Virus record (IMG/VR): IMGVR_UViG_3300037247_000423
Coordinates: 1 to 33,729 of that record
Source of the DNA: a virus
DNA: 33,729 nt
Reading direction: 5' to 3' (one strand)
Part shown: in pieces, positions 6,080-33,729 of the stretch
How the letters are laid out: every line of letters begins with the position of its first letter
How positions within the stretch are numbered: position 1 is the stretch's first letter
Notes under the pieces: generated by a model
The model's input: only the letters and a program-made list of their open reading frames with translations
What the model was told of the DNA's origin: nothing
The model's database searches: none
Made by a program: the position numbers and the translations under genes

Positions 6080-6083
6080 CGCA

Positions 6084-16433: not shown

Positions 16434-16438
16434 TTTAC

Positions 16439-16872: not shown

Positions 16873-16951
16873 TTTCTTCTCCTCAGTTGTGGTGGATTGT
16901 CGCCATCCGACTTATCCACTTCTTCATCATCCAAACCTGGGAAAACATCAA

Positions 16952-17068: not shown

Positions 17069-18018
17069 GCTAACCTCGCATTTGCGATCATCTTTCGTAC
17101 GGATTTGGCGGAATCAATCTCACCGGGGTCCGAGATCCCTCTTGGGTATCTGACCTTGGCGACGGGGAGTGATGCACGTAAGGCATCGGCCGCGAGCGCA
17201 GCCCCAGTCTTTCCAGCCATGTCGTTATCGTAGAAAAGGTAAACAGGTCTACCAAGTCGCTGAAGGATCTTACGTTGCGGCTCTGTGAGATCTGAACCAC
17301 AAGTAGCGAGAGCGTCAAAGCCAAGAGTGACCAGCTTTGCAAAATCGAAAAGCCCTTCCACCAGGAGAACAGGTTCGTCTGACTTGCGATCAACGAGATG
17401 ATCCCCAAGCAAACACAAACGCTTTGGTAGACCAAAATAGTCTTTGACTCTGGGTACCCTTTTGTTGGACACAGCGCGACCAGTAAAGCCGTACAGCGCG
17501 CCCGTGTGATCACATACAGGGAAGATAATGCGATCTTCATCCGGGTCATGGAGTATTGGAATTTTTCGCGCTGCGCGTGCGCTAATATGGCGTCGTCGGA
17601 GATACGGATGACCCTCTGCCGAATCATAGACGTGCCAGTATTCTTCGCTAAGTGGTTCCGGTAATTTTTGTATCTCTTCGGCATGGTTCCGTCGCCTCCA
17701 CTCGGGAAGATCATAACCAACTTGCTCGCCCGCCTCGATCTCCTCTTCCAGATCGGAATAGTCCTCACCCGTATATTCCTCAAGGAGATGGACAAGATAT
17801 GGAAGGGGGCCTTTCTCTTTGCATCCAAAACAATGGAAGAGGCTTTCGCGTTCATCAGTTACCAGAATTCCAAAACTTGGATTATTGTCCTGGCCCCCGG
17901 CGTGAGTCCATTCCGCCAGTGGGCACGAAAACATGAGCCATTCATCCTTGCGCTCAGAAGGCTGCGGTACTCCGTCATTGAGTTCCGTCATCAATGATTG
18001 AATACCCTCGACGTTCAC
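17065..18018 (-). CDS. DNA primase (CHC2 zinc + TOPRIM)
   Basis: 317 residues; GTG 18018 follows the previous stop directly, so it is probably translated by coupling. The zinc finger is C32, H39, C63, C66 (SCPLAEWTHA...FHCFGCKEKG). The TOPRIM domain has E221 (PVLLVEGLFDFAKL) and D264/D266 (LFYDNDMAGKTGA). It would make RNA primers for lagging-strand synthesis. Unlike T7 gp4 there is no fused helicase; the DnaB-like helicase is a separate gene. Length fits the catalytic core without a C-terminal helicase-binding domain. Confidence 0.9.
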   Translation of the reverse strand: MNVEGIQSLMTELNDGVPQPSERKDEWLMFSCPLAEWTHAGGQDNNPSFGILVTDERESLFHCFGCKEKGPLPYLVHLLEEYTGEDYSDLEEEIEAGEQVGYDLPEWRRRNHAEEIQKLPEPLSEEYWHVYDSAEGHPYLRRRHISARAARKIPILHDPDEDRIIFPVCDHTGALYGFTGRAVSNKRVPRVKDYFGLPKRLCLLGDHLVDRKSDEPVLLVEGLFDFAKLVTLGFDALATCGSDLTEPQRKILQRLGRPVYLFYDNDMAGKTGAALAADALRASLPVAKVRYPRGISDPGEIDSAKSVRKMIANARLA

Positions 18019-18480
18019 TTAGGCCGCTTCAGCGTCCTCCTGCTTTGCCGGTATGATCTTGACTTTCAGTACCGGAGTACCAGGAACAGCCGGAGTAACC
18101 TTGGACACATTCGCGAGTTCTTTCCCCGACAAGTGTTCCTTCGCTTTGGTCACACTGACGGAAATGGAATCATAGAACGCGTCTTCGTCCGCGACCGCTT
18201 CTTGGTACTCGCGCGGATCGATCTTCGTCTGTGAGCGTCCAGCCGGTCGCACGATTGTTGCATCGCACCTACCGTTCTTTTGCTCCTTCAGGCCCAGACG
18301 TTTCATCTCCTTGAACGTGTCGTCGCGCAACTGCACAGACGACGCTTGTAACGCCAGGATTTGCTCTTCCGTCGCGGCGATGCTGTAGAGCATACCGTTG
18401 AGCTTGTCCAGATCATCACCATTCGGGGGAATGATGCTCGATGCTTTGCGCCTTACGCGCATTCTTCGTTTCTCAGCCAT
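18019..18480 (-). CDS. hypothetical protein before primase, coiled-coil N-terminal half
   Basis: 153 residues, ATG 18480 with AGGAG 10 bases upstream. It is first on the transcript from the 18520 promoter. The N-terminal 12 residues are basic. Residues 20-65 are helical (LDKLNGMLYSIAATEEQILALQ...FKEMKRLGL). The C-terminal half contains KIDPREYQEAVADEDAFYDSISVSVTKAKEHL. No family recognised. Being promoter-proximal to primase suggests a replication accessory. Confidence 0.75.
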   Translation of the reverse strand: MAEKRRMRVRRKASSIIPPNGDDLDKLNGMLYSIAATEEQILALQASSVQLRDDTFKEMKRLGLKEQKNGRCDATIVRPAGRSQTKIDPREYQEAVADEDAFYDSISVSVTKAKEHLSGKELANVSKVTPAVPGTPVLKVKIIPAKQEDAEAA

Positions 18481-18519
18481 AGTACTTAATCTCCTCTGTT
18501 GAGCGGATGAGGGACACTC

Positions 18520-18548
18520 ACCTTACCAAAGAATCTAATAGGGTGCAA
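18520..18548 (-). promoter_or_regulatory. sigma70-type promoter with conserved spacer (copy at 18.5 kb)
   Basis: Minus strand: TTGCAC (18543-18548), spacer CCTATTAGATTCTTTGG (17), TAAGGT (18520-18525) with TGG extended -10. It drives the gene before primase and the following recombination genes. It overlaps the last bases of the 64-residue gene. Confidence 0.82.
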
Positions 18549-18729
18549 CTGTGCCGGATAGCCCCATTTTAGCTGGTCTAAACGATTGGCCCTGATAGTA
18601 GGTGCATACCTCCTGCGCTAGCACCAGTATCTCCTTCCCGTGGTTCCCGATAGCGTATCGCTCTCCTGCGTGGAACGATACAAAAACGACGACGGCAAAC
18701 GCCATGTAGATCATTATTCGATTTGTCAC
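18535..18729 (-). CDS. small protein with N-terminal membrane/signal segment
   Basis: 64 residues. GTG 18729 overlaps the polymerase stop as GTGA, with GGGAG 9 bases upstream. A hydrophobic segment (IMIYMAFAVVVFVSF) comes first, then a soluble part (LVLAQEVCTYYQG). Function unknown. Confidence 0.65.
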   Translation of the reverse strand: MTNRIMIYMAFAVVVFVSFHAGERYAIGNHGKEILVLAQEVCTYYQGQSFRPAKMGLSGTVAPY

Positions 18730-21353: not shown

Positions 21354-22687
21354 CAGTTGCGCCTACGTGTCCTGGTGTTACCGCCGCGCTGCCAGTCAGT
21401 GGATCGTCGTGCACTGCTGCGTCTTTGTGCTTCGGTAGGCGGGCCGATGATTAGATGCGGAGCTTGCTCAAACCCAATAGGGTTGAATCGGTAGTGGATA
21501 CCGAACATCGCGCTTTCGCCTTCCCTGCCCTTCAACGTATCGATAACCCGGTAGTATTTCTTGTTCTCGTCTCGGTTGATCTTGTTCTTCAAATGCCGAA
21601 TCCAAGGGCGTATCGCGTAGATCAGAGATGAATGTGTAGAAATCGCATCGGTCAGAGCAATGTTCTCCAATCCCCCGTGCTGCCCAGACTTTCCGGCAGA
21701 GCGCGCGAACTGCGTGGATATCACAAGCGGTATGTCCCTCTGCACGTTGATCCGTTTCAAATCGTCCATCACGCTCGACTGGTGTTCCCATTTGCTTGCG
21801 TTCCTTCTGAAATCCTCGGGCTTCAGCAAGTAGGCAGAATCGATGAACACAATGGATGGTCGAATCTCTTGAATGAGATTGTCCACGTTCTCCGTACGCC
21901 CGCCGAACCCGTGTGAGTAAATGCGTATCCCCGGTATCTCTTCGAAAGTCTGTATCGCTCCCAACATTTTCTCATGCGCTATCGGACCTAGCATACCGCG
22001 CCGCATCCATTTCGGATCGATACCTGCTTCCAAACCAATCAAGCGTTGGATCAGTTGTCGTCCGCTCATCTCCAGCGAGAAGAACAAAATAGAAAATCCT
22101 GCATGCCACGCTGCCAACACTTGCTTCAGCAGCAAATACGTTTTACCCATGCCAGGGCGACCAACCCAGGTCACTAGGTCAGCCCGTTGGTAGCCGCCCG
22201 TGTCCTGGTCTATGGGCAACCAACCCGTGGGTACCCCTGTGAGGCCAGAAGCGTGCGCCTCGTGTATCTCCGTGTACGCCCGGTGATAGTCCGTCGCCAG
22301 ATGATCGGTACCAGTGACCGTCTCTGCGTCATCTATCGCCCGTGCTGCAATTCGCAATCGCGAGATGCACTCACGTATGTTCTCGGGGTCAGCCCCTAGC
22401 AGTGCTTGTCGTAGTTCTCCGAATACCGGTCGCACTTCGTTGTAGAGTGCGCGATTGCGTAGTTGGTCCAAGTAGTATTCTGTGGACTCTCCTATTTCCG
22501 GTATTTCTACACCTGTCTCCTCTTCAATGGTTTCAATTGTTGGTAGCTCTCCGTAGCGTCGAAAATGTCTCCGGAGAAAATTGTAAACATCAACCTCATC
22601 GTCAACAAAAAGATCCGTGCTGATTTGTCTTAATAATTCTGTTGCATTGTTCTCGATGATGGCTGCGAGTAGACGCAACCCTTCCAT
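21353..22687 (-). CDS. DnaB-type replicative helicase
   Basis: 444 residues, ATG 22687 with AGGGGG upstream. The N-terminal helical domain spans about 1-120. The RecA-like core has Walker A GRPGMGKT (176-183), the DnaB signature FFSLEMSGRQLIQR (202-215) and Walker B IVFIDSAYLL (279-288), followed by HQSSVMDDLKRINVQRDIPLVISTQ. It unwinds the phage replication fork as a hexamer. The C terminus is Arg-rich. Its neighbours, a winged-helix loader candidate and the polymerase, form the replisome operon. Confidence 0.92.
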   Translation of the reverse strand: MEGLRLLAAIIENNATELLRQISTDLFVDDEVDVYNFLRRHFRRYGELPTIETIEEETGVEIPEIGESTEYYLDQLRNRALYNEVRPVFGELRQALLGADPENIRECISRLRIAARAIDDAETVTGTDHLATDYHRAYTEIHEAHASGLTGVPTGWLPIDQDTGGYQRADLVTWVGRPGMGKTYLLLKQVLAAWHAGFSILFFSLEMSGRQLIQRLIGLEAGIDPKWMRRGMLGPIAHEKMLGAIQTFEEIPGIRIYSHGFGGRTENVDNLIQEIRPSIVFIDSAYLLKPEDFRRNASKWEHQSSVMDDLKRINVQRDIPLVISTQFARSAGKSGQHGGLENIALTDAISTHSSLIYAIRPWIRHLKNKINRDENKKYYRVIDTLKGREGESAMFGIHYRFNPIGFEQAPHLIIGPPTEAQRRSSARRSTDWQRGGNTRTRRRN

Positions 22688-22705
22688 TCATACCCCCTAG
22701 TTCCA

Positions 22706-23242
22706 TTATTCGTTAGAAAAATAATCGTTCAGATTCACAAGCAAGTAAGTCTTAAAATCATTGCCCCACCACTCCTGCACCGTTTCAATAGTTCCCTGGA
22801 TGTAAGGATACACGCATACGTCCCCCATGATCCATTCGCGTATTTTCTGCCTCACAGTGTGCTCCGATCCTGGCGACAACGGAGATGGTCTACCGTCGTG
22901 GGCAAACCCTTCAATGAAAACATGACGAGCATCAGTATCCGACATGCTGGTGTTCTCGATAGCCAAGATATCTTTCATGGACAAGAACTCAATCTCCTCG
23001 TCCTGGAGCACGAGATGTTTCGCTGTTGCGTACCAGAGCAAATCATACTGTGAGATCTGGAAGTCGGCAGTGAGCACCAGCATGTAACCGTTTCCGTATT
23101 CTTCCTTGTCCAAACGATCAGCGAGTACGTCATGGCCCAATGACCGCAAGCTGTGCTCCCACACAAACTCCGGCACCCGCACTTCGATAAGTGACGCTTC
23201 GATTTGTTCGTCTTCTACAACGTCGTCTTCTTCATCCGCCAT
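22706..23242 (-). CDS. hypothetical protein of the replication operon
   Basis: 178 residues, ATG 23242 preceded by GGGAGAAG. Very acidic N terminus (ADEEDDVVEDEQIEASLIEV), then mixed alpha/beta with several aromatic segments (YGNGYMLVLTADFQISQYDLLWYATAKH, VCVYPYIQGTIETVQEWWG). No motif recognised. Its place between the putative loader and DnaB suggests a replication accessory such as a loader component; this is context only. Confidence 0.75.
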   Translation of the reverse strand: MADEEDDVVEDEQIEASLIEVRVPEFVWEHSLRSLGHDVLADRLDKEEYGNGYMLVLTADFQISQYDLLWYATAKHLVLQDEEIEFLSMKDILAIENTSMSDTDARHVFIEGFAHDGRPSPLSPGSEHTVRQKIREWIMGDVCVYPYIQGTIETVQEWWGNDFKTYLLVNLNDYFSNE

Positions 23243-24239
23243 TCTTCTTCTCCCGGTAATGCTTCACAACACGTTGAGCCATCGATAGCTTGTCACGGGT
23301 AGCGTAGTGCTCTGCCCTCTCCGTGGCAAGTTGGCGCTCCAGTTCCCCGGTAGTCGTGCCAGGAAGATCTTCTGCTTTGACTTTCTCGTAGTATTCCCTG
23401 GTCGCATAGAAACCAGTGAACTGTGACATCGCCATCCCCCACACCGAGATATCCGGCTTGGGCTTGACGAGATCCCAGTTCTTGAATTCTTTCTTCTTGA
23501 GCACGGACCAATGCTGTATGCACCACTCCATGAATTCGTAAGGATCGTTGACAGAACGCTCGTGGTTCCGCAGTTGGCCGGTCACACGTCCAGCAGTTGC
23601 CTTGGTGAAAGACTGCTCGCGTAGCTCCGGGTAATATTCGATGCAAAGTTGCTTCCATGCCTGCGCGACGTTGCCAGTATTCACTTTCTTCGTAAGCTGG
23701 CGATGTGCTTTATTCTTGCGTCGTACTCTCCCTACCTTCTTTACTTCATCTACCACTGCGTGCACTGCACGCGTAGCTCTTGTAGTTGTAGTTCTGGAAG
23801 AACTAGAACTAGGAGAGGTATTCTTCTCTTCCTTTAGGGGGTCCACCGTTGACCCCTCCCCCTCGGCCTGGGTTTTATGCTTCTTGGAGATACGTAGCTT
23901 GCTCATTTTGCACACGATTTCAATTCTAGGAGCCGCGTCCCTTCCGTTGGCGTCTTTCCGGGGATGGACCACCAAGAATCCCTTGTCCTCAAGTCCTTTC
24001 AATGCCCGTTTTATCGTGTTCCTAGCGAGGCCCAGGCCAGCGATGACCTTGGGTATACCCTGGAGCATGTGACGCATAGGGACGCGCTCAGACCGCTTAT
24101 TGAACCGGGCTGTGCGCTCGATACAGAAGTGGGCCACCTTTGCTTCGGAGGCTGTGTATCGGGCGAGGTTGGCATTGAGGTAATTGGATAGTCCCAGGTA
24201 GTTGTAACCAGGACGCGAGATCGCTATACTTGCTGTCAC
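23232..24239 (-). CDS. winged-helix replication protein (lambda O / helicase-loader type)
   Basis: 335 residues; GTG 24239 has GGAGG 10 bases upstream. Residues 25-95 form a winged helix (ASEAKVAHFCIERTARF...GLARNTIKRALKGLEDKGFLVVHPR), as in phage replication initiators. A Lys/Ser/Thr-rich linker (120-160) separates it from a helical C-terminal domain (185-320) with WKQLCIEYYPEL and FMEWCIQHWSVLKKKEFKNWDLV, which would recruit the helicase. Followed by the 178-residue protein and DnaB, it is the likely initiator/loader; it may bind a nearby origin, for which I see no clear iterons. Confidence 0.8.
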   Translation of the reverse strand: MTASIAISRPGYNYLGLSNYLNANLARYTASEAKVAHFCIERTARFNKRSERVPMRHMLQGIPKVIAGLGLARNTIKRALKGLEDKGFLVVHPRKDANGRDAAPRIEIVCKMSKLRISKKHKTQAEGEGSTVDPLKEEKNTSPSSSSSRTTTTRATRAVHAVVDEVKKVGRVRRKNKAHRQLTKKVNTGNVAQAWKQLCIEYYPELREQSFTKATAGRVTGQLRNHERSVNDPYEFMEWCIQHWSVLKKKEFKNWDLVKPKPDISVWGMAMSQFTGFYATREYYEKVKAEDLPGTTTGELERQLATERAEHYATRDKLSMAQRVVKHYREKKNGG

Positions 24240-24240
24240 A

Positions 24241-24268
24241 GTTCGTTCCCCTCCAAGGTGTTACGAAC
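24241..24268 (-). repeat. small hairpin around the ribosome binding site of the loader gene
   Basis: GTTCG (24241-24245) and CGAAC (24264-24268) can pair, placing the GGAGGGG ribosome binding site of the winged-helix gene in the loop. Only 5 bp, so regulation is tentative. Confidence 0.3.
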
Positions 24269-24272
24269 GTTG

Positions 24273-24310
24273 ACCCCCGGAAGGTGTTCAGGCCCTCCGG
24301 GGGTTTTTTA
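24273..24310 (+). terminator. strong plus-strand terminator opposing all genes
   Basis: Perfect 9-bp stem ACCCCCGGA / TCCGGGGGT (24273-24281, 24296-24304) followed on the plus strand by TTTTTT. On the minus strand the same hairpin sits in the 5' leader of the loader gene, with an A run before it and no T run after it. Confidence 0.65.
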
Positions 24311-24323
24311 TTTCTGACAAAGA

Positions 24324-24352
24324 ATTCTACACCCCTCAGTGCAGGCGGGCAA
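24324..24352 (-). promoter_or_regulatory. sigma70-type promoter for the replication operon
   Basis: Minus strand: TTGCCC (24347-24352), 17-base spacer, TAGAAT (24324-24329). ATTCTTTG follows, shared with the other phage promoters but in a shifted position. The leader to GTG 24239 is about 75 bases and contains the opposing terminator hairpin. Confidence 0.55.
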
Positions 24353-24368
24353 ATCGCGCCCGTTGCCG

Positions 24369-24563
24369 TCACGACTCAAATATTAAATCCAATAACTTAA
24401 TAGATTGCTCGTTAGCGAGTTTCATTGGAGTGCCATATTGGTCGTGGAGTAGACAGGCCATGTTAGAGATGTAAGTGAACTTGAATGATCCAGGGGTGTT
24501 GCCCCCATCGTCTTCAAATGCCTTCCTGATTGTTTCGCGAGCATCACGGATTTCATTGCTCAT
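24369..24563 (-). CDS. hypothetical small protein
   Basis: 64 residues from ATG 24563 (ATG 24566 is adjacent) with AGGGGAAGG upstream. Helical and acidic (NEIRDARETIRKAFEDD), C-terminal half SNMACLLHDQYGTPMKLANEQSIKLLDLI. No family recognised. The gap 24564-24673 upstream contains only a 7-bp GGGAGCG/CGCTCCC hairpin (24635-24657) without a T run. Confidence 0.65.
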   Translation of the reverse strand: MSNEIRDARETIRKAFEDDGGNTPGSFKFTYISNMACLLHDQYGTPMKLANEQSIKLLDLIFES

Positions 24564-24673
24564 CATCCTTCCCCTAAATTGTTGAGGCACCCACTAATCA
24601 CCTTGGCGTTCCCAGCCTCATCCCAAGTCTCCGGGGGAGCGAGGATCGCCCGCTCCCTCCCGTGCCCTCTGCT

Positions 24674-24901
24674 CTACTTACCGTTGCCGTTCTGCTGCGG
24701 TAGCTTCTCTTCGTCCAGCTTGTGATCGCCGCACCAGTCGCCGGGGAACATCACCGGCCAGCCACTCATCGTAGGCGCATGTCGTCGGCACCTACCCACC
24801 GACTGAGCGCCAACGATCACCTTCGCCTTCTCCACGTAGAACATACAGGTAGCGCACCGCATGCCTTCGCTCCTGTGTTTCCAGTTGTCTTCTTTACCCA
24901 T
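24674..24901 (-). CDS. small Cys/His-rich zinc-binding protein
   Basis: 75 residues; ATG 24901 overlaps the upstream stop as TGATG with GGAG 8 bases before. Cys/His pattern: RCATCMFYVE, GRCRRHAPTM, DWCGDHKLDE, enough for one or two zinc sites. I have seen this pattern in small uncharacterised phage proteins. Function unknown. Confidence 0.7.
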   Translation of the reverse strand: MGKEDNWKHRSEGMRCATCMFYVEKAKVIVGAQSVGRCRRHAPTMSGWPVMFPGDWCGDHKLDEEKLPQQNGNGK

Positions 24902-25170
24902 CACCTTCTCCTCGTTCTATACACTGCTCTTATTGCCTGTTCCAGTTGTCGCCTTGCACGAGCACGCGCGACTCGTTCTTTTGATTGCGCAAGCTCGATG
25001 AAAAATAGATTATGTTCCTCTACTCGTTGAACCTCTGTGCAATAGTAAATCCCCGGAATGCTAAAAGCGGCCATCGCAGCCGCTTCTTTGCACTTATATT
25101 CAGTAACGTAGGGCAATCCCTGCCCTCCAACTTCAAACAGTATCCCTACCGTAAGCAACCAGATGGTCAC
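24901..25170 (-). CDS. small protein with hydrophobic N terminus
   Basis: 89 residues; GTG 25170 overlaps the upstream stop as GTGA. The N-terminal hydrophobic stretch (TIWLLTVGILFEVGG) could be a signal or anchor. Two Cys (KC, YYC) may be paired if exported, and the C-terminal third is a basic helix (KERVARARARRQLEQAIRAV). Unknown family. Confidence 0.65.
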   Translation of the reverse strand: MTIWLLTVGILFEVGGQGLPYVTEYKCKEAAAMAAFSIPGIYYCTEVQRVEEHNLFFIELAQSKERVARARARRQLEQAIRAVYRTRRR

Positions 25171-25382
25171 GGCAGAGCCTTGTCCTTGTAGTGCTTGCCA
25201 AGCTGAAGCATACACATGCTCACCAGTCCTATGCCGCCGCCAATCAGTAGCGTAACGAAGTCATGACTTGCGGCCCCAAACACTATTACGCCAAAGCCGA
25301 CACCCAAACCAGGAAGACCACACTCGTAGAGGAACTGTGCGCGCTCCAGGATCTTCAGTTGCTCATCGTCAGTCAATGGCAT
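25167..25382 (-). CDS. small two-span membrane protein
   Basis: 71 residues, ATG 25382 with a weak GGGCGAG upstream. After a soluble helix (LTDDEQLKILERAQFLYECG) come two hydrophobic spans (GLGVGFGVIVFGAA and FVTLLIGGGIGLVSMCML). It overlaps the upstream gene by 10 bases. Function unknown. Confidence 0.68.
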   Translation of the reverse strand: MPLTDDEQLKILERAQFLYECGLPGLGVGFGVIVFGAASHDFVTLLIGGGIGLVSMCMLQLGKHYKDKALP

Positions 25383-25585
25383 ATCTCGCCCACGAAACCG
25401 TGAATCAACGCCTCGCTGACCGGACTGTGATGGTAGTTGCCGTGGCTGTCTTTGCACATCATTGCATCACGCACCATGGTCTCGGCATTCTCGCGCAACG
25501 CTTCAACTGTAATGTTAAGCGATTTAGCGACTTCCTCCTCAGTCATGGGGATCCCACGCAAGCTGTAGTAGAGCGGCGCAGTCAC
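25373..25585 (-). CDS. small helical protein with possible HTH
   Basis: 70 residues. GTG 25585 overlaps the upstream stop as GTGA; ATG at 25546 is an alternative. GIPMTEEEVAKSLNITVEALRENAETMV reads like a helix-turn-helix. The C terminus has KDSHGNYHHSPVSEALIHGF. No family recognised. Confidence 0.6.
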   Translation of the reverse strand: MTAPLYYSLRGIPMTEEEVAKSLNITVEALRENAETMVRDAMMCKDSHGNYHHSPVSEALIHGFVGEICH

Positions 25586-25932
25586 GACCGGTCCTGCTCG
25601 TACAGTGGGCGCATCATCAGGGCAATCGCTTCGGCGCGCTCGCCCCACGGCACGACGCCTTCTTTGCGGCACTCGTTCATCCACTGCACTTCGAACTCGC
25701 GACCGTGCTCGTAGCTGTCGAAGTCTCTCAATGCCATGCACGGCGCTGTGACGTACTGCCCGTCGCTGGTGTAGAGATCGATCTGCCACCACTTCTTGTC
25801 GGACTCGTAGATGATCTCGCTGGCGCGTTCCACGACGGCATCACCGAACTGCATCAGCGGAAACTCATCGCTGTGCATGCTCTTGAGCGTACCCGCTTCA
25901 GAGATCTCAATGACGTGTTCTTTTGCCTTCAT
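25582..25932 (-). CDS. hypothetical protein downstream of the structured RNA
   Basis: 116 residues. ATG 25932 is chosen because GGAGGT lies 7-8 bases upstream; that site overlaps an earlier ATG at 25947. Mixed alpha/beta with many aromatics (KKWWQIDLYTSDGQYVTAPCMAL, HGREFEVQWMNECRKEGVVPWG). No family recognised. It starts only about 23 bases after the closing helix of the candidate RNA at 25955-26268, so that RNA could be its leader. Confidence 0.72.
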   Translation of the reverse strand: MKAKEHVIEISEAGTLKSMHSDEFPLMQFGDAVVERASEIIYESDKKWWQIDLYTSDGQYVTAPCMALRDFDSYEHGREFEVQWMNECRKEGVVPWGERAEAIALMMRPLYEQDRS

Positions 25933-25954
25933 GTTATGTACCTCCATTTTCGTA

Positions 25955-26268
25955 TGATCAAAAGGGACCGCTGTCCTACCTTACTTGCTGCCTACGTTCC
26001 GGCTCAGCAGCTTTCAACCACCCTTCCCTGACTGTAACTACCGGGCTACCATTGGCCTCATATTTCAGAGTCCCCGGTCCTCGGACAGCAGTCCCTTTTG
26101 ATCACAAAAATGAAACACAGAGGGCGAGAGGGTCACACTGGGGGAGCGGGACTGCTCTGCTTTAATCGGGGGGATTACCCTCCGTGTTTCGAAAACTGGA
26201 CTCTCAGGGATTTTGACCGGGGGTACAGTCACGCGATGGCTGAAATCGAGCCTACCCTGAGAGTCCAG
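25955..26268 (-). ncRNA. candidate structured RNA of three large consecutive stem-loops
   Basis: The 340-base gap 25933-26273 has no convincing gene. On the minus strand three stems follow one another. P1: 26255-26268 with 26196-26209, 14 perfect pairs. P2: 26178-26190 with 26112-26124, 13 pairs. P3: 26083-26104 with 25955-25976, 22 pairs. Linkers are 5 and 7 bases. The single non-Watson-Crick position in P2 and in P3 is G.U on the minus strand but A.C on the plus strand, so the structure belongs to minus-strand RNA. Competing pairings exist: 26087-26095 with 26148-26156, and 26072-26079 with 26215-26222. It may be a free RNA or a riboswitch-like leader for the gene at 25932. No known family recognised. 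Confidence 0.6.
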
Positions 26269-26273
26269 AACCT

Positions 26274-26480
26274 TCAAAACGTGAGCTTGTGGTCTTGCCC
26301 CGTAGCGAGGGGCGGCTTATAGAAGTCGTCCTTACGGCTACGTTGCATGCCGCCGCCAAGCACGATCTCGATGTGCTGAGTAGCTTTCTCGCACTGATCG
26401 CCTCGGAAGCCTTGCGCGTCCAAAGTCACGTTCCCGGCCGGGGAGATATCCACTACGATTTGCTGTTGCTGTTTCGTCAT
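26274..26480 (-). CDS. DUF2997-like protein
   Basis: 68 residues, ATG 26480 with AAGGAG upstream. The pattern IVVDISPAGNVTLDAQGFRGDQCEKATQHIE...LGG matches what I know of DUF2997: a short beta hairpin with I.PdG and G..G..C motifs, then a helix ending in LGG. In cyanobacteria and other bacteria DUF2997 genes sit beside DUF1257/Ycf35 genes, as here. Function unknown. It is 9 bases after the DUF1257-like gene. Confidence 0.75.
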   Translation of the reverse strand: MTKQQQQIVVDISPAGNVTLDAQGFRGDQCEKATQHIEIVLGGGMQRSRKDDFYKPPLATGQDHKLTF

Positions 26481-26489
26481 GGTCTCTCC

Positions 26490-26927
26490 TTACGCCGGGA
26501 CACCAAGGACGAGACGGATTCCACCGCTGTCGCCCTTGACCCTGCTCACACTGTAGCCCTGCTGCGCAGCCTGACGCTCGATAGCATTCGTAGCGTACGC
26601 CTGATACAGCTTCCCTAGCCTTGCCTGATCCCGGTTGTCGTCCTTGCCGGGGGTGACGCCGAGAAGCTTCTCGACATGGCCCTGATAGAAGTCCGTCGCA
26701 AGACTGTACTCGCCGTCTTTGTTGGCGTACATCCCCACGTCGTACGGGCTGTCATGCAGCTTCAGAACGTAGTCGGCTTTCTTCATCTGGCCCCCAGCGT
26801 AAGCACGCGGGATAGCCGCCTCCAGGAGATCGCATTTGACCCCCTGCGCCTGAAGCTCCTTGATGGCACCCTTGATGGCTGCCTTGTCGGACAGCAACAG
26901 AGTACTGATAGTCGTCGTGTGGCTCAT
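26490..26927 (-). CDS. DUF1257 / Ycf35-like protein
   Basis: 145 residues; ATG 26927 has AGGAGG 8 bases upstream, giving the family-typical opening MSHTTTISTLLLSDK. Further match: AIKELQAQGVKCDLLE, then ADYVLKLHDSPYDVGMYANKDGEYSLATDFY, the usual N.DG.Y.L..D core of Ycf35/DUF1257. The family is found in plastids, cyanobacteria and scattered bacteria with no assigned biochemical function. It has its own promoter at 26957-26985 yet follows the Ycf46-like operon. An internal basic/Gln-rich end (IERQAAQQGYSVSRVKGD) may bind nucleic acid. Confidence 0.78.
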   Translation of the reverse strand: MSHTTTISTLLLSDKAAIKGAIKELQAQGVKCDLLEAAIPRAYAGGQMKKADYVLKLHDSPYDVGMYANKDGEYSLATDFYQGHVEKLLGVTPGKDDNRDQARLGKLYQAYATNAIERQAAQQGYSVSRVKGDSGGIRLVLGVPA

Positions 26928-26956
26928 TGATGGCCCTCCTGTGTTACCGAGACCGA

Positions 26957-26985
26957 AGTATACCAAAGGATCCTATGTAGCTCAA
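26957..26985 (-). promoter_or_regulatory. strong sigma70-type promoter before the DUF1257-like gene
   Basis: Minus strand: TTGAGC (26980-26985), 17-base spacer ending GGATCCTTTGG, TATACT (26957-26962), with TGG extended -10. It shares CTTTGGTA with the 2.1, 18.5 and 29.4 kb promoters. Leader of about 25 bases, containing GGAGGGCCA. Confidence 0.78.
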
Positions 26986-27629
26986 ATACGCCGCCGCACA
27001 CGGATCCGTCTTTGCGGCTGCGATCCTACTACCACTGCCCTGGTTTCGCCAGTCACCGTCCTGACCTTCTCCACCGTAGGCTTGGGCGTTTTGCCCTGGT
27101 TCAACCCTTGCACTTCCCAGCACTCATCGAACTCTTCCTCGTCATCGAGATAGTTATCGACGTATGCGCTGGTCATGGTCGCACCAAGATCAGTTGCTTC
27201 CTCGACTGTCAGGACATCGGCATTGCCGACGAACACTGGCAGTATGTTATACACCGATTCGCGGTGCGCTGGTAGCTTTGCGTTCACCGAGATAGCAGGA
27301 GCCTCTTCACGTAAGCGTAGCAACACGCCCGCTCCGCTGTAGGGGCGACCGTTCATGGTGTTGCTCACTTGCATCAACAGCACGACGCCTTCCGAATGCT
27401 CCATGCGCGCAGTGTACCAGTGTCCGTGGTCCGCGAAGTTGTCAATCGATGCGGGCGCTTTCGTAGCGCGGCCAATCGGCTGTAACAACTGACTTGGAAA
27501 ACATCGCGACTGGACGCCCGGTAAATGCTCGATGTTGAACGCAAACACATTGACCTTGCTCGACGTACCTTTGAACGTCTGGTGCCCGTGCATAAGCTGC
27601 ACAACGTGACCTGGAATACGACGTGCCAC
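26982..27629 (-). CDS. unknown protein of the Ycf46/Ycf35 cluster
   Basis: 215 residues. GTG 27629, one base after the AAA+ stop, is preferred; it gives an opening ARRIPGHVVQLMHGHQTFKG. ATG 27593 is an alternative. Globular, beta-rich first half (NVFAFNIEHLPGVQSRCF, WYTARMEHSEGVVLLMQVSN), then VEEATDLGATMTSAYVDNYLDDEEEFDECWEV, and a basic C terminus (SQPQRRIRVRRR). I do not recognise a family. Its place between the AAA+ and DUF1257-like genes makes it a possible partner or substrate adaptor. Confidence 0.72.
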   Translation of the reverse strand: MARRIPGHVVQLMHGHQTFKGTSSKVNVFAFNIEHLPGVQSRCFPSQLLQPIGRATKAPASIDNFADHGHWYTARMEHSEGVVLLMQVSNTMNGRPYSGAGVLLRLREEAPAISVNAKLPAHRESVYNILPVFVGNADVLTVEEATDLGATMTSAYVDNYLDDEEEFDECWEVQGLNQGKTPKPTVEKVRTVTGETRAVVVGSQPQRRIRVRRRI

Positions 27630-27630
27630 G

Positions 27631-29322
27631 CTAATGTACCTGCTCGTCGGAAGAACCGCGACGATGATGCACGCGAACACGAGCGCCTTTCTTCGGCTCA
27701 ACCGTGTCCTCCTGAAAGTCATCGTCATACACCTTGCTGGCAGGCCGCGCGTTCTCGCGTGCCCAAAGCGTCATCATCTGAATCTGATAACCGTACGCCT
27801 TGCTCAGCGGAGTCATCTCCTTCAGTGACGCAATGATGTGGTGCATCTCCAACTCTTCATCGGCATCGAATGCATTGATCAAGGCGTCCTTCAACGAAGT
27901 CTCGATCTCCGCACCGACGTAGGCTTTACTCGCCCCAACGAACTTGGCGTAATCCTTCTTGCTGAAATCCGCGATGTCGTAGCCGCGCTTCCGCAGATGA
28001 ATCTCCAAGATCTGTTTGCGCTCATCACCCGCTGGTAGACGCGTAGCGAATATTTCATCGAACCGGCCCCGCCTTAACAACTCAGGAGGAAGACCATCGA
28101 TGTTGTTGGCTGTGACCATGGTGAACACAGGGGTCTTGTTGTCCTGCAACCACGTCAGGAAGGTGCCCAGCACACGGCTGCCGGTGCCGGAGTCGCCACT
28201 GCCGCCCATACCACCTAGACCCTTGTCGATCTCGTCGCAGAAGAGCACACAGGGGGCCATAGCCTCCACCATGCGCAGCGCAGTACGAATGCGTTCCTCC
28301 GATGCACCAACGAGTGACTGAAACACCTTACCGAAGTCCAACCGGATACAAGGTACGCCAAGCGTAGCGGCGACAGCTTTCGCCACCAGCGACTTACCGG
28401 TACCAGGAGGCCCGACGAACACCATGCCCTTCGGAGCTTCGATACCGAACTCGGCCGCTTCCTCGGTGTAACAATTTTTCCGCTTCTCAACCCACTCTTT
28501 CAGAAGCTCCATGCCGCCAACGTCTGCCATGTCCTCGGTGTGGTAAAGCTCCAGGAGATCATTCTTGTTGACGATCTCCGTCTTGCCTTTGTTGAGTCCT
28601 TCGATGATCTCGTCAGGACCGACAGCTTCGTCGGAATCCTCGACTGCATTCTGCACGATGGCGAGCGAAGAAAACATTTCGAATCCTTCCTTGGTCATAC
28701 CCGCACCGGCAAAACAAATCTTGTCGTAGTCATCCTTGTCCACAGCGAGAATGCTGTCATCAACACCATCCAGAACAGCACCGAGTGCTTTCTTCAATTC
28801 CTTGTGTCCTGGCGTATCGAAATACAGTGTCACGATTGAACTGGAGACAGCTTCGGGCATCGGCACATTCGGTGTAACGAACACAACGCGAATATTACTC
28901 GGCGGCAACACATGTGCGTACTGCTGAATCATGTGCACGACGGCAGGCTCTTCCAGCCAGTAAAGAGGATTCACGTACACGAAGAAGTGTAACTGCTCAT
29001 CGTCCTCCGATGACTCGGGCTTCTTCTTGACCAGTTCCTTCATCGGCTCAGTGATGGCCCCATTGAAGACTAGCTGACCATCACCCTCGACGTTGGTTTT
29101 GAACATCGTGTTCGCATCGAATTCGCGGAACCCATTGATGATGTCCCACTCTCGATATTGATTAGCTTCCACGAGCACAGTCTTACGGAGTGCCAGGGTA
29201 GCCCTGACAACTTCGTCGGTGCGTACGTGGATGACAGACGCGCCCGAATCCGAGTACACCATCAGCTTGTGGCTGAAGGCGTCCTCCGAGTGGCGATTCA
29301 ATAACTCTTGAGTTACGCGCAT
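27631..29322 (-). CDS. Ycf46-like AAA+ ATPase
   Basis: 563 residues, ATG 29322 with GGAGG about 11 bases upstream. The N-terminal half (1-260) is a degenerate ATPase-like domain, as in Ycf46. The C-terminal AAA+ module starts DMADVGGMELLKEWVEKR and has Walker A GPPGTGKS (304-311), KVFQSLVGASEERIR, Walker B LFCDEID (360-366), the segment GDSGTGSRVLGTFLTWLQ, sensor 1 TANN (404-407) and RRGRFDEIF (417-425). These follow plastid/cyanobacterial Ycf46 closely, rather than FtsH or Cdc48. AAA+ proteins remodel other proteins with ATP; the substrate here is unknown. The C terminus is basic. Confidence 0.85.
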   Translation of the reverse strand: MRVTQELLNRHSEDAFSHKLMVYSDSGASVIHVRTDEVVRATLALRKTVLVEANQYREWDIINGFREFDANTMFKTNVEGDGQLVFNGAITEPMKELVKKKPESSEDDEQLHFFVYVNPLYWLEEPAVVHMIQQYAHVLPPSNIRVVFVTPNVPMPEAVSSSIVTLYFDTPGHKELKKALGAVLDGVDDSILAVDKDDYDKICFAGAGMTKEGFEMFSSLAIVQNAVEDSDEAVGPDEIIEGLNKGKTEIVNKNDLLELYHTEDMADVGGMELLKEWVEKRKNCYTEEAAEFGIEAPKGMVFVGPPGTGKSLVAKAVAATLGVPCIRLDFGKVFQSLVGASEERIRTALRMVEAMAPCVLFCDEIDKGLGGMGGSGDSGTGSRVLGTFLTWLQDNKTPVFTMVTANNIDGLPPELLRRGRFDEIFATRLPAGDERKQILEIHLRKRGYDIADFSKKDYAKFVGASKAYVGAEIETSLKDALINAFDADEELEMHHIIASLKEMTPLSKAYGYQIQMMTLWARENARPASKVYDDDFQEDTVEPKKGARVRVHHRRGSSDEQVH

Positions 29323-29357
29323 AGACAGTGGCCCTCCGGTTCATTGACTCACAAGGG

Positions 29358-29386
29358 ATCCTACCAAAGAATTTGATAGGGTGCAA
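29358..29386 (-). promoter_or_regulatory. sigma70-type promoter with conserved spacer (copy at 29.4 kb)
   Basis: Minus strand: TTGCAC (29381-29386), spacer CCTATCAAATTCTTTGG (17), TAGGAT (29358-29363) with TGG extended -10. It drives the AAA+ gene with a leader of about 30 bases. A degenerate operator copy lies 20 bases upstream of the -35. Confidence 0.83.
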
Positions 29387-29405
29387 CCGGAATGTAGTTC
29401 CTACT

Positions 29406-29421
29406 TTGCAACCAAGTGCAA
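29406..29421. promoter_or_regulatory. 16-bp palindromic operator, copy 5 (imperfect)
   Basis: TTGCAACCAAGTGCAA keeps both TTGCA/TGCAA arms but loses the central CG. It is just upstream of the AAA+ promoter and after the Acb2-like gene. Confidence 0.55.
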
Positions 29422-29423
29422 AA

Positions 29424-29684
29424 TCAGCCTACAGATGCCTGGGATAGCTTAGGCTCCGGATGCCCTGGTGTGGGCCTAGCCACAGAGCGGTTAGCAGCCA
29501 TGAAACCAAGCTCCATGTAATCGCGGGCAATTGCTATCCACCGCTTGTCATAAGCCCCGGCTGTGTTCAGTCCATCCAGCATAGCGAGCACTTCTTGTTC
29601 TTTGCTCTTCAGTATATTCATCACCGCGATTTCATCTTGCTCCAACTCGCGGTACCCAGTGATTAAACGATGTTGATTTTCCAC
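29424..29684 (-). CDS. Acb2-like cyclic-nucleotide sponge (anti-CBASS), DUF7681-type
   Basis: 86 residues; GTG 29684 follows the previous stop directly, with GGAG 8 bases upstream. The pattern QHRLITGYRELEQDEIAVMN, then DKRWIAIARDYMELGFMAANRSVARP matches my knowledge of the small helical Acb2/DUF7681 family (HR.I.GYReLsqeEI..MN; RW.aIa...lq.GFMal.RaVa.P). Acb2 proteins form hexamers that bind cyclic di- and trinucleotides and so block CBASS defence. The C-terminal 12 residues after RPTPG are extra. It lies in a small-gene cluster between lysis and replication genes, a usual place for anti-defence genes. Not confirmed by search. Confidence 0.75.
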   Translation of the reverse strand: MENQHRLITGYRELEQDEIAVMNILKSKEQEVLAMLDGLNTAGAYDKRWIAIARDYMELGFMAANRSVARPTPGHPEPKLSQASVG

Positions 29685-29921
29685 CTAATCTACTCCTGCA
29701 AATGCTTTGTACATATCGGTTACTTCAGAAGGTATGGTCTTTACAAATTCAGGATCCTGAAGTTTTAATTTCCATTCTTCACTTGCATTCCATACCTCGA
29801 TCTTGAGTTCTACAGGATACTTTGGGCAAATGTATAACTGACCATGAAAACGATCACATGCGCCACACCACCTAGCGTGAGCATAAGGATGACCGTGCGG
29901 TGGCGTGTAGCCTGTTTCCAT
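29685..29921 (-). CDS. small Cys-rich protein upstream of the Acb2-like gene
   Basis: 78 residues; ATG 29921 has GGGGGGAAG just upstream. WCGACDRFHGQLYICPKYP gives CxxC plus a third Cys and a His, a possible zinc knuckle. The rest is a charged alpha/beta segment (VELKIEVWNASEEWKLKLQD). It starts 15 bases after a terminator, so its expression may depend on read-through. No family recognised. Confidence 0.7.
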   Translation of the reverse strand: METGYTPPHGHPYAHARWCGACDRFHGQLYICPKYPVELKIEVWNASEEWKLKLQDPEFVKTIPSEVTDMYKAFAGVD

Positions 29922-29935
29922 ATCTTCCCCCCACA

Positions 29936-29971
29936 ATTGAAAAGGGGCCGAACCCCGAAGGATCCGGCCCC
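29936..29971 (-). terminator. intrinsic terminator / attenuator
   Basis: Minus strand: GGGGCCG (29965-29971) and CGGCCCC (29944-29950) form a 7-bp GC stem around a 14-base loop, followed by TTTTC. It lies about 115 bases downstream of the promoter at 30065-30094 and just before the gene at 29921. Confidence 0.75.
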
Positions 29972-30058
29972 GCCCTCCGCTCAAGGAGATAACCCAGTTG
30001 CTACGACACGCAGGAGAGTGGGAGGGCCAGTCCGTCAGCAGGCGTATCTAACAACCGC
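29936..30058 (-). ncRNA. candidate small RNA or attenuated leader
   Basis: The promoter at 30065-30094 and the terminator at 29936-29971 enclose about 120 bases with no credible coding frame (the longest is 19 codons without a ribosome binding site). Either a free-standing small RNA or a leader controlling the Cys-rich/Acb2-like genes by attenuation. Confidence 0.45.
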
Positions 30059-30064
30059 ACGGCT

Positions 30065-30094
30065 ATTTTACTTATTATGCCCCTTCCCCGTCAA
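30065..30094 (-). promoter_or_regulatory. sigma70-type promoter after the lysis genes
   Basis: Minus strand: TTGACG (30089-30094), 18-base spacer, TAAAAT (30065-30070). It begins right after the stop of the gene at 30100. It does not share the conserved spacer of the other phage promoters. Confidence 0.6.
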
Positions 30095-30099
30095 ATCGA

Positions 30100-30537
30100 T
30101 CACTTGGCGGTTTTCTTCATCTCCACTTCAATCGCGTTGAGCCGCATCTTCTGATCTTGCAACTGCTTCTGCTCGCCTTCAAGATTTCGCATGTCGCGCT
30201 TATCGTCCAGATCTAAAGGGCCATCCGTTTCTTCTCGATAATCGAGATCCTTAATCTCGTGACCCACTTGAGCGCGTCGAGTCGAATTCACCATCTGTTG
30301 CAGATCGAGCAAGATCTGAGCCTGCGAACGCTGCACTTCTTCTGCATGAGCGTAACGCCCATCAAACCACGCACCACCAGCAAGCAAGAATGCAATGATC
30401 GTTACGGTGCTACCCGCTATCCCGATCCAAATCTTGACCTTCGTCGGCCACTTCGCTTTAGCTAAGTCAGTTGCTTTGCGCCGAAGCGTCGTAGTCGATT
30501 CTTCCTCGTACTCTCTTCTTTCTCTATTGCTTGGCAT
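30100..30537 (-). CDS. single-span membrane protein with coiled coil
   Basis: 145 residues, ATG 30537, no strong Shine-Dalgarno; the previous stop is 6 bases upstream, so coupling is likely. Basic cytoplasmic N terminus (1-33), one membrane span (IGIAGSTVTIIAFLLAGGAWF, about 38-58), then a long charged coiled coil (65-145). It could be a second inner-membrane spanin-like or lysis-control protein, by topology and position at the end of the lysis cassette. Confidence 0.72.
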   Translation of the reverse strand: MPSNRERREYEEESTTTLRRKATDLAKAKWPTKVKIWIGIAGSTVTIIAFLLAGGAWFDGRYAHAEEVQRSQAQILLDLQQMVNSTRRAQVGHEIKDLDYREETDGPLDLDDKRDMRNLEGEQKQLQDQKMRLNAIEVEMKKTAK

Positions 30538-30543
30538 CTTCGT

Positions 30544-31263
30544 CTACCCGATGGTAAACGCCTCACCCCTGTTGTTCGCGGCGTTGTAACTGATATGCAC
30601 CCATCCGGACATCGGATCACCTTCTTTCGGGAACTCACGTATGAGTTGATCGAATTTGAGATTGGCGAGACACCACTGATAAAGCTCATCGTTGGGTACA
30701 CCGACAATCTCGCAGTCTGCTGCCATACCTTTCGGATGGCTCTTGAGCCTGAAGTATTCATCCCAGGAATTCGTGTCGCTCGGTTTGTTATGCTTTACGC
30801 GCCAATTCACGAAACCCTGTTTCGCTACGATCTTCTCCAGGGCCTCGCCGCGATACCACGACTGCGGCGCGAACTTGCCGAACTCAGCACGCATGGGCTG
30901 CAAGCAGTTCACAGCCAGTGCATGGGCTGCACGTAGCACTTGAGGGCTTGGAGTGTTATCGATACCGTAGCGGTCAGCAGTAGACGACCGGGCAACCTCT
31001 CTGTGAGTGAAGTTTGGCGCGTCAGGCTCAAATCTCTTGTGAGGATCGAACTCCCATGGGTCCACTGTAGGTACCTCCGGTTGTGGCTCCGTAAAAGCCT
31101 CTTTGACTGTTTCCGATGTCACGTCCCTGCCGGAGCCGGTAACGCTCACGGAATCATAGGCCGCCTGCTCCTGCTCTCCCTCTGCGGACGGCACATCCCC
31201 GAATACAGGCGCAACGTCATCCGTCTGTGTCGCCTTCGACTTCTTCTTCCGTTTCCTCGCCAT
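30544..31263 (-). CDS. M15 peptidase endolysin with charged N-terminal extension
   Basis: 239 residues, ATG 31263 with GGAGG 6 bases upstream. The C-terminal half resembles peptidase M15A, a zinc L-alanyl-D-glutamate or D-Ala-D-Ala peptidase: SHPKGMAADCEIVGV gives H176 and D183, and SGWVHISY gives H223, the expected zinc ligands. It would cut peptidoglycan cross-links during lysis. The first about 85 residues (KRKKKSK then acidic, Pro-rich) are unusual for an endolysin, and there is no signal peptide, so it needs the holin for access. It overlaps the o-spanin by 47 bases. Confidence 0.85.
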   Translation of the reverse strand: MARKRKKKSKATQTDDVAPVFGDVPSAEGEQEQAAYDSVSVTGSGRDVTSETVKEAFTEPQPEVPTVDPWEFDPHKRFEPDAPNFTHREVARSSTADRYGIDNTPSPQVLRAAHALAVNCLQPMRAEFGKFAPQSWYRGEALEKIVAKQGFVNWRVKHNKPSDTNSWDEYFRLKSHPKGMAADCEIVGVPNDELYQWCLANLKFDQLIREFPKEGDPMSGWVHISYNAANNRGEAFTIG

Positions 31264-31639
31264 CGGTTTCCTCCTCTACCGGCTTACCCCCGGTCTTGAA
31301 ATTTACGGCCCGCCGATTGAAGTTAGTAAGACATTCGCGGAACCATTCAATTTGTGCCTTGCGCTGCTTGAGATGTATGAGCATGTCGTTGAAGTTCAGG
31401 CCCATGTTCTCGTAGTGCTTCGGCGTGAACGCAACCCACCAGATATCTACTCGATCCTGCATGGCCCACGGTTCTACCTTACGTAGATGAATCTTGTCTG
31501 CTTTCGGTTCTGCTCCGCAACGAATCTCCTCCATAGCAGTGACTTCATTCACCACCACATCCGGTTGCTGAATCATCGGCCCGGTACAGGCCGCGATCAG
31601 GAACGGACTAAAAACTATTAGCAACGTTTTCGAATTCAT
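31217..31639 (-). CDS. o-spanin (Rz1-like outer-membrane lipoprotein)
   Basis: 140 residues; ATG 31639 lies inside the i-spanin gene in another frame, the classical Rz/Rz1 arrangement. The signal peptide ends in a lipobox, FLIAAC, with the lipidated Cys at residue 18. The mature part has one conserved region (WAMQDRVDIWWVAFTPKHYENMGL) and an acidic tail. It would pair with the i-spanin to fuse inner and outer membranes at lysis. Longer than typical Rz1. Confidence 0.82.
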   Translation of the reverse strand: MNSKTLLIVFSPFLIAACTGPMIQQPDVVVNEVTAMEEIRCGAEPKADKIHLRKVEPWAMQDRVDIWWVAFTPKHYENMGLNFNDMLIHLKQRKAQIEWFRECLTNFNRRAVNFKTGGKPVEEETDGEETEEEVEGDTDG

Positions 31640-32024
31640 CGAATACTTCTTGCGTTTTCTTTTGCATGAGATTGGTGACAAGGCCGGGTTTCGCGGCCAG
31701 TAGTTTACCGAACTTGTGATCGGCAAATACATTCTTCATGTACTGCCCTTGCTCGCGTGCCTCTTCCAACTTTGCATCGGCTACTTCCCTGGCAGCCGTA
31801 CTCTCAATCATTGCGATTTGAAGATTCTGGATCCGGTTCTCGTTGTTCTTGATGGTTTGACGGAACTGCTCTTCGTTGGCTTGATGCACTGCGATAGCAC
31901 TGGTCTGTTCAGCGATCAACTGATCCTTGCGTTGGTCGTCCTTCCAGTGCAGATAGATTGGCAATCCCACCGCGATCATGATTGCCAATGCGATACCTGC
32001 CTTAATGAGAAACCCGGCACCCAT
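31608..32024 (-). CDS. i-spanin (Rz-like)
   Basis: 138 residues, ATG 32024 with GGAG 8 bases upstream. An N-terminal inner-membrane anchor (IKAGIALAIMIAVGLPIYLHW) is followed by a long periplasmic coiled coil (DQRKDQLIAEQTSAIAVHQ to AREQGQYMK). Topology, size and overlap with a lipoprotein gene identify it as the inner-membrane spanin, which implies a Gram-negative host. Confidence 0.84.
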   Translation of the reverse strand: MGAGFLIKAGIALAIMIAVGLPIYLHWKDDQRKDQLIAEQTSAIAVHQANEEQFRQTIKNNENRIQNLQIAMIESTAAREVADAKLEEAREQGQYMKNVFADHKFGKLLAAKPGLVTNLMQKKTQEVFDEFENVANSF

Positions 32025-32025
32025 A

Positions 32026-32280
32026 TCACTTACTCCAGATTTTATCCCCGACTACGAAGCCGATGTACGCACCGATGACTGCGGCGCACGGCCACATACC
32101 AGAGACCATGATGTCCGCATTCGTTTGAGGGATAGTAATGCCGTTCGCAGTGACAACCATCGTGTAGACACCGATTGCGACGATGTACCACATGCTGAGC
32201 CATGCCATCCTCCTTCGGTTCGTCCAAAGCGTTCCGGGGTTTGGATGTTGACCCCCAACCGCTTCTGTTGCCTCACCCAT
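32026..32280 (-). CDS. holin-like two-span membrane protein
   Basis: 84 residues, ATG 32280 with GGAGG 8 bases upstream; an upstream ATG at 32295 lacks a site. Two spans: MAWLSMWYIVAIGVYTMVV and MWPCAAVIGAYIGFVVGD, with a polar linker and short basic C terminus. Position directly before the spanins and endolysin makes a holin the best guess. Confidence 0.72.
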   Translation of the reverse strand: MGEATEAVGGQHPNPGTLWTNRRRMAWLSMWYIVAIGVYTMVVTANGITIPQTNADIMVSGMWPCAAVIGAYIGFVVGDKIWSK

Positions 32281-32301
32281 GATGCAACCCTCCACTTAAC
32301 G

Positions 32302-32334
32302 TGAAAGAAACCCCGGCAGCCGAAACCACCGGGG
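32302..32334 (-). terminator. intrinsic terminator after the secreted repeat protein
   Basis: Minus strand: CCCCGG (32329-32334) and CCGGGG (32311-32316) around a 12-base loop, followed by TTTCTTTC. It separates the secreted protein gene from the lysis cassette. Confidence 0.75.
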
Positions 32335-32354
32335 CATGAGTTACACCATCGAAT

Positions 32355-32370
32355 TTGCAATCAATTGCAA
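32355..32370. promoter_or_regulatory. 16-bp palindromic operator, copy 6
   Basis: TTGCAATCAATTGCAA, one base from the perfect palindrome, flanked by T and AAA. It lies between the stop of the secreted protein gene and its terminator. Confidence 0.6.
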
Positions 32371-32381
32371 AAACGAATTAC

Positions 32382-33317
32382 CTAGTTACCTTCAGCTTGG
32401 CCTCGTGACGTGAACTTGATCCGGTTGTCGTCATCAATGCCGATCAGCACCGACTCGATCAGATCCTCGTCCATGTTCATCGTGTAATCCTGACCGCCCA
32501 GAGGGAAACTGACCGTCTGGAAACCAGAACCGTTAACCGCACTGACGTTCGGCTTGTAGCCAGCCTGGAACATCGCCTCGGTAAACGCGATAGCGGCTGC
32601 ACGCTGATATTGCGGGTGCCTTTCTACCGGCACGAAGGCTTTCAACTCTTTCGAGTACAAAACCTTTTGCACGTTGCCCTCGCCATCGAGAACATTGGCC
32701 GCAACGATGTGGCCTTCACGTTCGGCAATCGTCGTCATCTGGTGACGATACAAGTCCAGAGCAAGCTCCTGTGCTTCCGGGATGTTGCTCTCAAAACCTG
32801 TCCGCACAGCTTGTTCCATTACGCAGTCTTCATCACGTATCGGCAAGCTGAAGCCCAAGCTGAAAACACTCCCAGTCCCACCAGAACCACCGGACGCAGA
32901 ATACGTCGAGATGCAATTGGTTGTTGAACGTGAACTGATACTCGGCGCAAACGCGGCAACACGATTGCCGCTGGCATCACTCTTGATGCTGACGCCCTGC
33001 TTGTTACCCTGCAACTGACCCTGGACGGCAATGGCTTTCGAATTCGAATACGCCTTCCCGCCATAGGCTTTGTTGCTATTGTAGTTGGCGTTGTAATCGG
33101 AATTGTAGTTCTTGTTGATTCCGATCTGGCCCTGCTGCATACCTTGCTGCTGACCTTGCAACTGCCCTTGAAGCTGACCCTGTTGCTGACCTTGAAGCTG
33201 GCCTTGGATCTGATTGTCGTCGCAATTGCTGATACCCGCGCATGGACTTCCGGCGAATGCCGACCCACTTACGGACAGGGCAAAGGCAGCGAGAATGCTT
33301 GCAAGCAATTTTCTCAT
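32382..33317 (-). CDS. secreted Q/G- and N/Y-repeat protein
   Basis: 311 residues, ATG 33317 with AAGGAGAAGGGG upstream. A clear signal peptide (MRKLLASILAAFALSVSGSAFA, cut near residue 22) is followed by tandem QGQLQGQQ units (about 38-63), then an N/Y/S-rich stretch (NYNSDYNANYNSNKAYGG, about 69-93), another QGQLQG unit, a Ser/Gly linker (136-150), and a globular C-terminal domain with a few Cys (C166 in DEDCVMEQ). The low-complexity part resembles amyloid/prion-like or curli-type sequences. Role unknown; perhaps surface exclusion or a modified cell envelope. It has its own promoter and terminator. Confidence 0.82.
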   Translation of the reverse strand: MRKLLASILAAFALSVSGSAFAGSPCAGISNCDDNQIQGQLQGQQQGQLQGQLQGQQQGMQQGQIGINKNYNSDYNANYNSNKAYGGKAYSNSKAIAVQGQLQGNKQGVSIKSDASGNRVAAFAPSISSRSTTNCISTYSASGGSGGTGSVFSLGFSLPIRDEDCVMEQAVRTGFESNIPEAQELALDLYRHQMTTIAEREGHIVAANVLDGEGNVQKVLYSKELKAFVPVERHPQYQRAAAIAFTEAMFQAGYKPNVSAVNGSGFQTVSFPLGGQDYTMNMDEDLIESVLIGIDDDNRIKFTSRGQAEGN

Positions 33318-33338
33318 TTTCCCCTTCTCCTTATTTCA

Positions 33339-33368
33339 CCTATACCACGAACTGGGGAATCCAATTCG
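33339..33368 (-). promoter_or_regulatory. extended -10 promoter for the secreted protein gene
   Basis: Minus strand: TGG directly before TATAGG (33339-33344), with GGATTC upstream as in the other phage promoters. The -35 is poor. The leader is about 15 bases and consists mostly of the ribosome binding site. Confidence 0.5.
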
Positions 33369-33483
33369 TCATGGCGAATACTACGCCTACCACCTACCAT
33401 GTCGCAAATCAGAGACATAATTACACGGTTAGTTACTACTCAAGCTTCTTTCCCCTCACTTTAGGATTTGAGGGTGTATCACG

Positions 33484-33594
33484 TCACGATCCAAAGCTGG
33501 CCCCTATTGCGCCAAGGATTAAACCGATTACCCCTACGACGGCATAACGTTGCCATGGTTTCAGAGCATTCCATCTTTCGCTTAGCTTCTCCAT
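33484..33594 (-). CDS. 36-residue single-span membrane peptide
   Basis: Starts MEKLSERWNALKPWQRY, then a Gly/Ile/Val-rich span (AVVGVIGLILGAIGASFG) ending in Ser. ATG 33594 has GGAGG about 6 bases upstream. Amphipathic basic N terminus plus one span; it could be a small holin-type or regulatory peptide. The gap 33369-33483 to the next promoter holds nothing I can support. Confidence 0.62.
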   Translation of the reverse strand: MEKLSERWNALKPWQRYAVVGVIGLILGAIGASFGS

Positions 33595-33623
33595 TATCTT
33601 CCTCCTGTGATGGTGGCAGCCAT

Positions 33624-33729
33624 CTATATTCCTAGTGACGGGATGAGAAATGCACAGTTGTTCGTAGTTAGATAATCCTCTGCCGCAGTTCGTGCCGTCG
33701 CTTTATCAGCAGCATTACGAACTATCGAT
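33624..33729 (-). CDS. 3' end of an unknown gene cut by the window edge
   Basis: The last 34 or so codons are visible, ending in TAG at 33624-33626 (NAADKATARTAAEDYLTTNN then IPSLGI). The segment reads like a helical, Ala/Thr-rich protein end and stays open to the window boundary. Identity unknown. Confidence 0.5.
   Translation of the reverse strand, partial: SIVRNAADKATARTAAEDYLTTNNCAFLIPSLGI

Follow-up and report, generated by a model that had tools for sequence, protein, structure and literature searches.

Results

A Distant Acb2-Family Gene

The 86-codon open reading frame at 29424-29684 of the window (the entire 33,729-base virus record that we analyzed, a 33.7-kb phage fragment) is, judged by its sequence, a distant but ordinary member of the Acb2 family, and it very probably encodes a cyclic-oligonucleotide sponge. 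An earlier note on this DNA, which did not name a strand, had proposed an 86-residue protein here, and such a frame spans the interval exactly on the minus strand, being read from the GTG at 29684 to 29424; the plus-strand frame of the same interval has two stops. A putative ribosome-binding site (AGGAG, 29693-29697, minus strand) lies 8 nt 5′ of the GTG, within the 3′ end of the upstream 78-aa gene (29685-29921, minus strand). The acb2 GTG follows immediately after the TAG stop of that gene and in the same frame (29682-29687), such that read-through would fuse both proteins. GTG is also the start codon of two acb2 homologues, those of viral contig L001 and Microcystis phage Mwe-JY05.

The assignment to the Acb2 family made in the earlier note was borne out by Pfam, PHROGs, a PDB profile search and residue-level conservation. 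The HMM comparison with Acb2 that it had suggested gave a match to Pfam PF24729 (Acb2_Tad1_hairpin) of 58.5 bits (E 7.4e-16) across positions 1-58 of the 58-position model, far above the curated cut-off of 27 bits, and the protein was also matched by PHROG 717 (phrog_717, E 8.8e-16), which is the set of Vs.4 homologues used in the T4 Vs.4 paper (PMC10097602). Searching the PDB with phmmer retrieved p26 (8h2j, E 3.7e-8), the crystallized Acb2 of phage PaP2 (PMC11722364), and a profile of 27 relatives retrieved p26 at E 2e-31 and Vs.4 (7uq2) at E 1e-18, the remainder being at chance level. No NCBIfam model was found. By tblastn the protein matches 214 phage records, 202 of these over ≥80% of the query and all at <60% identity, and in IMG/VR the confirmed matching stretches number at least 568; the proteins that it matches best are without exception short and Acb2-like. 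Judged by sequence, the predicted architecture is the one expected of Acb2, a short N-terminal helix and a helical hairpin with no extra domain, in 86 residues with the hairpin domain at residues 10-70. Several Acb2 homologues, at 501-731 of contig L024 and in other phage records, are labeled "NAD/FAD-utilizing enzyme," apparently in error.

Pocket Residues and Unusual Positions

In T4 Vs.4, Y8 and F82 stack on cGAMP, and Y8, H11, K23, and R79 make polar contacts with it (PMC10097602). When aligned with 84 other distinct homologues, a sample drawn with a window-led alignment and whose counts therefore favor window-like sequences, T4 Y8 corresponds to Y11 of the window protein (Y in 83/84), T4 K23 to K26 (K in all 84) and T4 R79 to R66 (R in 83/84). 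Other conserved positions of the window protein are N23 (84/84), R48 (83/84), and P71 (84/84). H11 and F82 are specific to T4; at these positions the rest of the family and the window protein have L and A, respectively. The loss of F82 was considered as a meaningful change and ruled out, as the aligned position (A69 in the window protein) is A in 79 of the 84 homologues.

The window protein has D at residue 55, a site that is T in 78/84 homologues and D in 3/84, and where the substitution T68M weakens T4 Acb2 (PMC12657230). Aeromonas phage 25 and GomatiRiver_11 share this D in proteins that look typical elsewhere. Residue N65 occurs in none of the 84 homologues, which have T, V, I, A, or C instead. 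Nearly all relatives stop three to four residues past P71 at an aromatic residue, usually F; the window protein lacks this aromatic and has instead a 15-residue tail, TPGHPEPKLSQASVG, that is seen in 0/84 homologues. The C-terminal aromatic is also missing in a few other proteins (VP882, L015, L052, L094, and L103). In a tree of 85 rows the end branch of the window protein is long, at 1.0 vs. a median of 0.19. These variant positions are the sole part of the protein that is of specialist interest.

The same positions bear on two other readings of the gene. They might mark a sponge of Acb2 fold whose ligand range has shifted, e.g., mainly to cyclic trinucleotides or to another messenger, owing to D55, N65, and the replaced C-terminus; the scarcity of D55, the absence of N65 and of the tail from all homologues, the lost terminal aromatic, and the long end branch would all be consistent with such a shift. 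However, every contact residue kept by the family is conserved in the window protein, as is R48, and two of the other carriers of D at that site, Aeromonas phage 25 and GomatiRiver_11, look typical in other respects, and we regard a shifted range as unlikely. D55 and the divergent C-terminus could alternatively reflect a decayed or non-functional copy carried by the phage, but the frame is intact, the ribosome-binding site is good, the domain match is full-length, and the contact residues are retained, making decay a highly improbable explanation.

Pfam pools the hairpins of Acb2 and Tad1 in one model, PF24729, which is named after both, and this raises another reading, in which the window protein is a Tad1-type anti-Thoeris sponge for gcADPR. 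The hairpin model is indeed common to Tad1 and the window protein, but in Tad1 an antiparallel four-strand sheet precedes the two helices (PMC12043709), and this N-terminal beta-sheet domain is missing from the window protein, as merely nine residues precede its hairpin. In addition, the family profile that retrieved Acb2 structures found no Tad1 chain in the PDB at E up to 10, and the top matches are, as described above, all short Acb2-like proteins. We consider a Tad1-type sponge extremely improbable.

Gene Order and the Variable Slot

PHROG and Pfam matches in the window include a terminase, a ParB-like protein, a RuvC-like resolvase, an exonuclease, a UvsX-like recombinase, helicases, a DNA polymerase, an endolysin, and spanins. 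The terminase (51% identity) and polymerase (45%) have their nearest counterparts in Pseudomonas phage SM1 and its kin, and by these sequences the phage is distantly related to SM1. A megablast search of window positions 15000-33729 against 50,697 phage records gave no DNA-level match, and no tRNAs were found in the window. Two of the encoded proteins (7679-9097 and 14987-16078) contain extended low-complexity stretches, acidic (Glu/Asp) as well as basic (Lys). A weak MazG-like match at 5705-6160 (17.6 bits) falls below the cut-off; Atd1, which is MazG-like, has been reported to act in counter-defence in phages.

The order on the minus strand is spanins, endolysin, a 145-aa gene, a hairpin, the 78-aa gene, acb2, an AAA+ ATPase gene, a 248-aa gene, DUF1257, DUF2997, and a series of small genes, one of them encoding 121 aa. 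The slot holding acb2 and the 78-aa gene is bounded upstream by the 145-aa gene beside the lysis genes (30100-30537, minus strand) and, 3′ of acb2, by the AAA+ ATPase gene (27631-29322, minus strand; phrog_8638), a conserved gene of the lineage. An intrinsic-terminator-like hairpin (29944-29971, minus strand) of 12 pairs followed by TTTT (-28 kcal/mol, z -2.8) separates the acb2 pair from the lysis genes, in a scan that overall found no more terminators than in shuffles.

The AAA+ ATPase, DUF1257, and DUF2997 genes (26274-29322) form a block conserved in Pseudomonas and Rhizobium phages and in viral contigs. DUF1257 (Ycf35) and an AAA protein (Ycf46) are also plastid and cyanobacterial proteins of ill-defined function. 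The order from AAA to DUF1257 is conserved in SM1, Rhizobium phage RHph_I4, and contigs L016, L033, L034, and L035, and the AAA gene is present in RcTiptonus. The content directly before the AAA gene varies: L033 has only the small gene on the lysis side, L034 a ligase-like 308-aa ORF with an 83-aa ORF, and SM1 three different small genes. PF24729 had no match in the whole genomes of the complete relatives SM1, RcTiptonus, and RHph_I4, and the same search was positive in T4, PaMx35, L001, and L016. Contig L016 carries its acb2 in another slot of the same block (region 5804-6690), flanked by DUF2997 on one side and by a counterpart of the 121-aa gene on the other. As the content of the slot differs among relatives, the complete relatives lack PF24729, and the L016 slot is a different one, acb2 appears accessory-like in this lineage. 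The different slots (before the AAA gene in the window, after the DUF2997 gene in L016) suggest that acb2 may have been acquired twice in this lineage, and the 85-row tree groups the L016 acb2 with long-insert Acb2s, but a tree joining it with the window acb2 was not rejected (p-AU 0.136). No common upstream partner gene of acb2 was seen by eye across phages.

The suggestion in the earlier note that small genes nearby may be further anti-defence genes found little support. The 78-aa gene, which starts with ATG and encodes a CxxC-containing protein, had no relatives in Pfam, PHROGs, NCBIfam, phages, or viral contigs, and is a possible candidate by virtue of its position next to acb2. Position is likewise what recommends the 24369-25932 cluster, for which no informative match was found. 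In five related loci the 121-aa gene (25582-25947) is likewise kept beside the AAA/DUF1257/DUF2997 genes; acb2 is near it in L016, and the other four neighborhoods gave no acb2 match. With this distribution the 121-aa gene looks like a gene of the lineage and not one specific to defence.

Discussion

Based on the published biochemistry of the Acb2 family (PMC10097602), the most likely function of the window protein would be the sequestering of CBASS-type cyclic nucleotides. We infer that, like T4 Vs.4 and PaP2 p26, it is made during infection and forms a hexamer of helical hairpins, with predicted pockets composed of Y11, K26, and R66 from two protomers. Its ligands would be 3′3′-cGAMP-like dinucleotides, with cyclic trinucleotides as possible additional ligands, and an anti-CBASS effect would arise from messengers being held uncut and kept from the effector, such that the alarm would not lead the infected cell to shut down. 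Vs.4 itself binds cGAMP at ~30 nM, three per hexamer (PMC10097602). The activity of Acb2 can also set off the Panoptes system (PMC12657218, PMC12657230), and consequently the benefit of acb2 would be host-dependent; its variable slot fits the expectation for accessory counter-defence genes. It is conceivable, although we think it very unlikely, that the window protein represents an Acb2 sub-type in which the acidic D55 and the long C-terminal tail alter ligand choice toward other or fewer messengers, perhaps evading sensors of Acb2 activity such as Panoptes and possibly together with the 78-aa orphan.

These findings add a probable sponge gene to a phage fragment whose relationship to SM1-type phages is distant; in three complete relatives the family is lacking. 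The unusual tail and one altered site might change what the protein binds, and this natural variant (D55, no C-terminal aromatic) could be used for probing the determinants of Acb2 ligand range; otherwise it is one further distant sequence in a family known from hundreds of phages.

Comparison with Known Systems

Identities of 50-54% are found with Acb2-like hypothetical proteins from Aeromonas phage vB_AsaP_MQM1 and from the IMG/VR contigs L001 and L039, which have the same hairpin, but the MQM1 and L001 proteins end in PTSF/PTTF where the window protein has its tail, and none of the neighboring genes of the window were found in the MQM1, L001, and L039 loci. The T4 Acb2 (Vs.4; 7uq2) is 25% identical to the window protein and shares with it PHROG 717 and the Y8/K23/R79 set (Y11/K26/R66), whereas its stacking F82 is replaced by A69, and neither the NQH start nor the RW motif of the window protein is present in it. 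The PaP2/PaMx-group Acb2 (p26; 8h2j, 8ixz) is 33% identical by tblastn and 35% in a MAFFT alignment. The window protein is without the inter-helix insert and C-terminal PxxF of p26 and has D55 in place of T, but the two have in common the domain, Y11, K26, N23, an R before the last turn, an MDNQH/MENQH start, and the RW motif, whose arginine (R48 in the window protein) is in p26 R67, presumably a residue of the trinucleotide site and a lead only.
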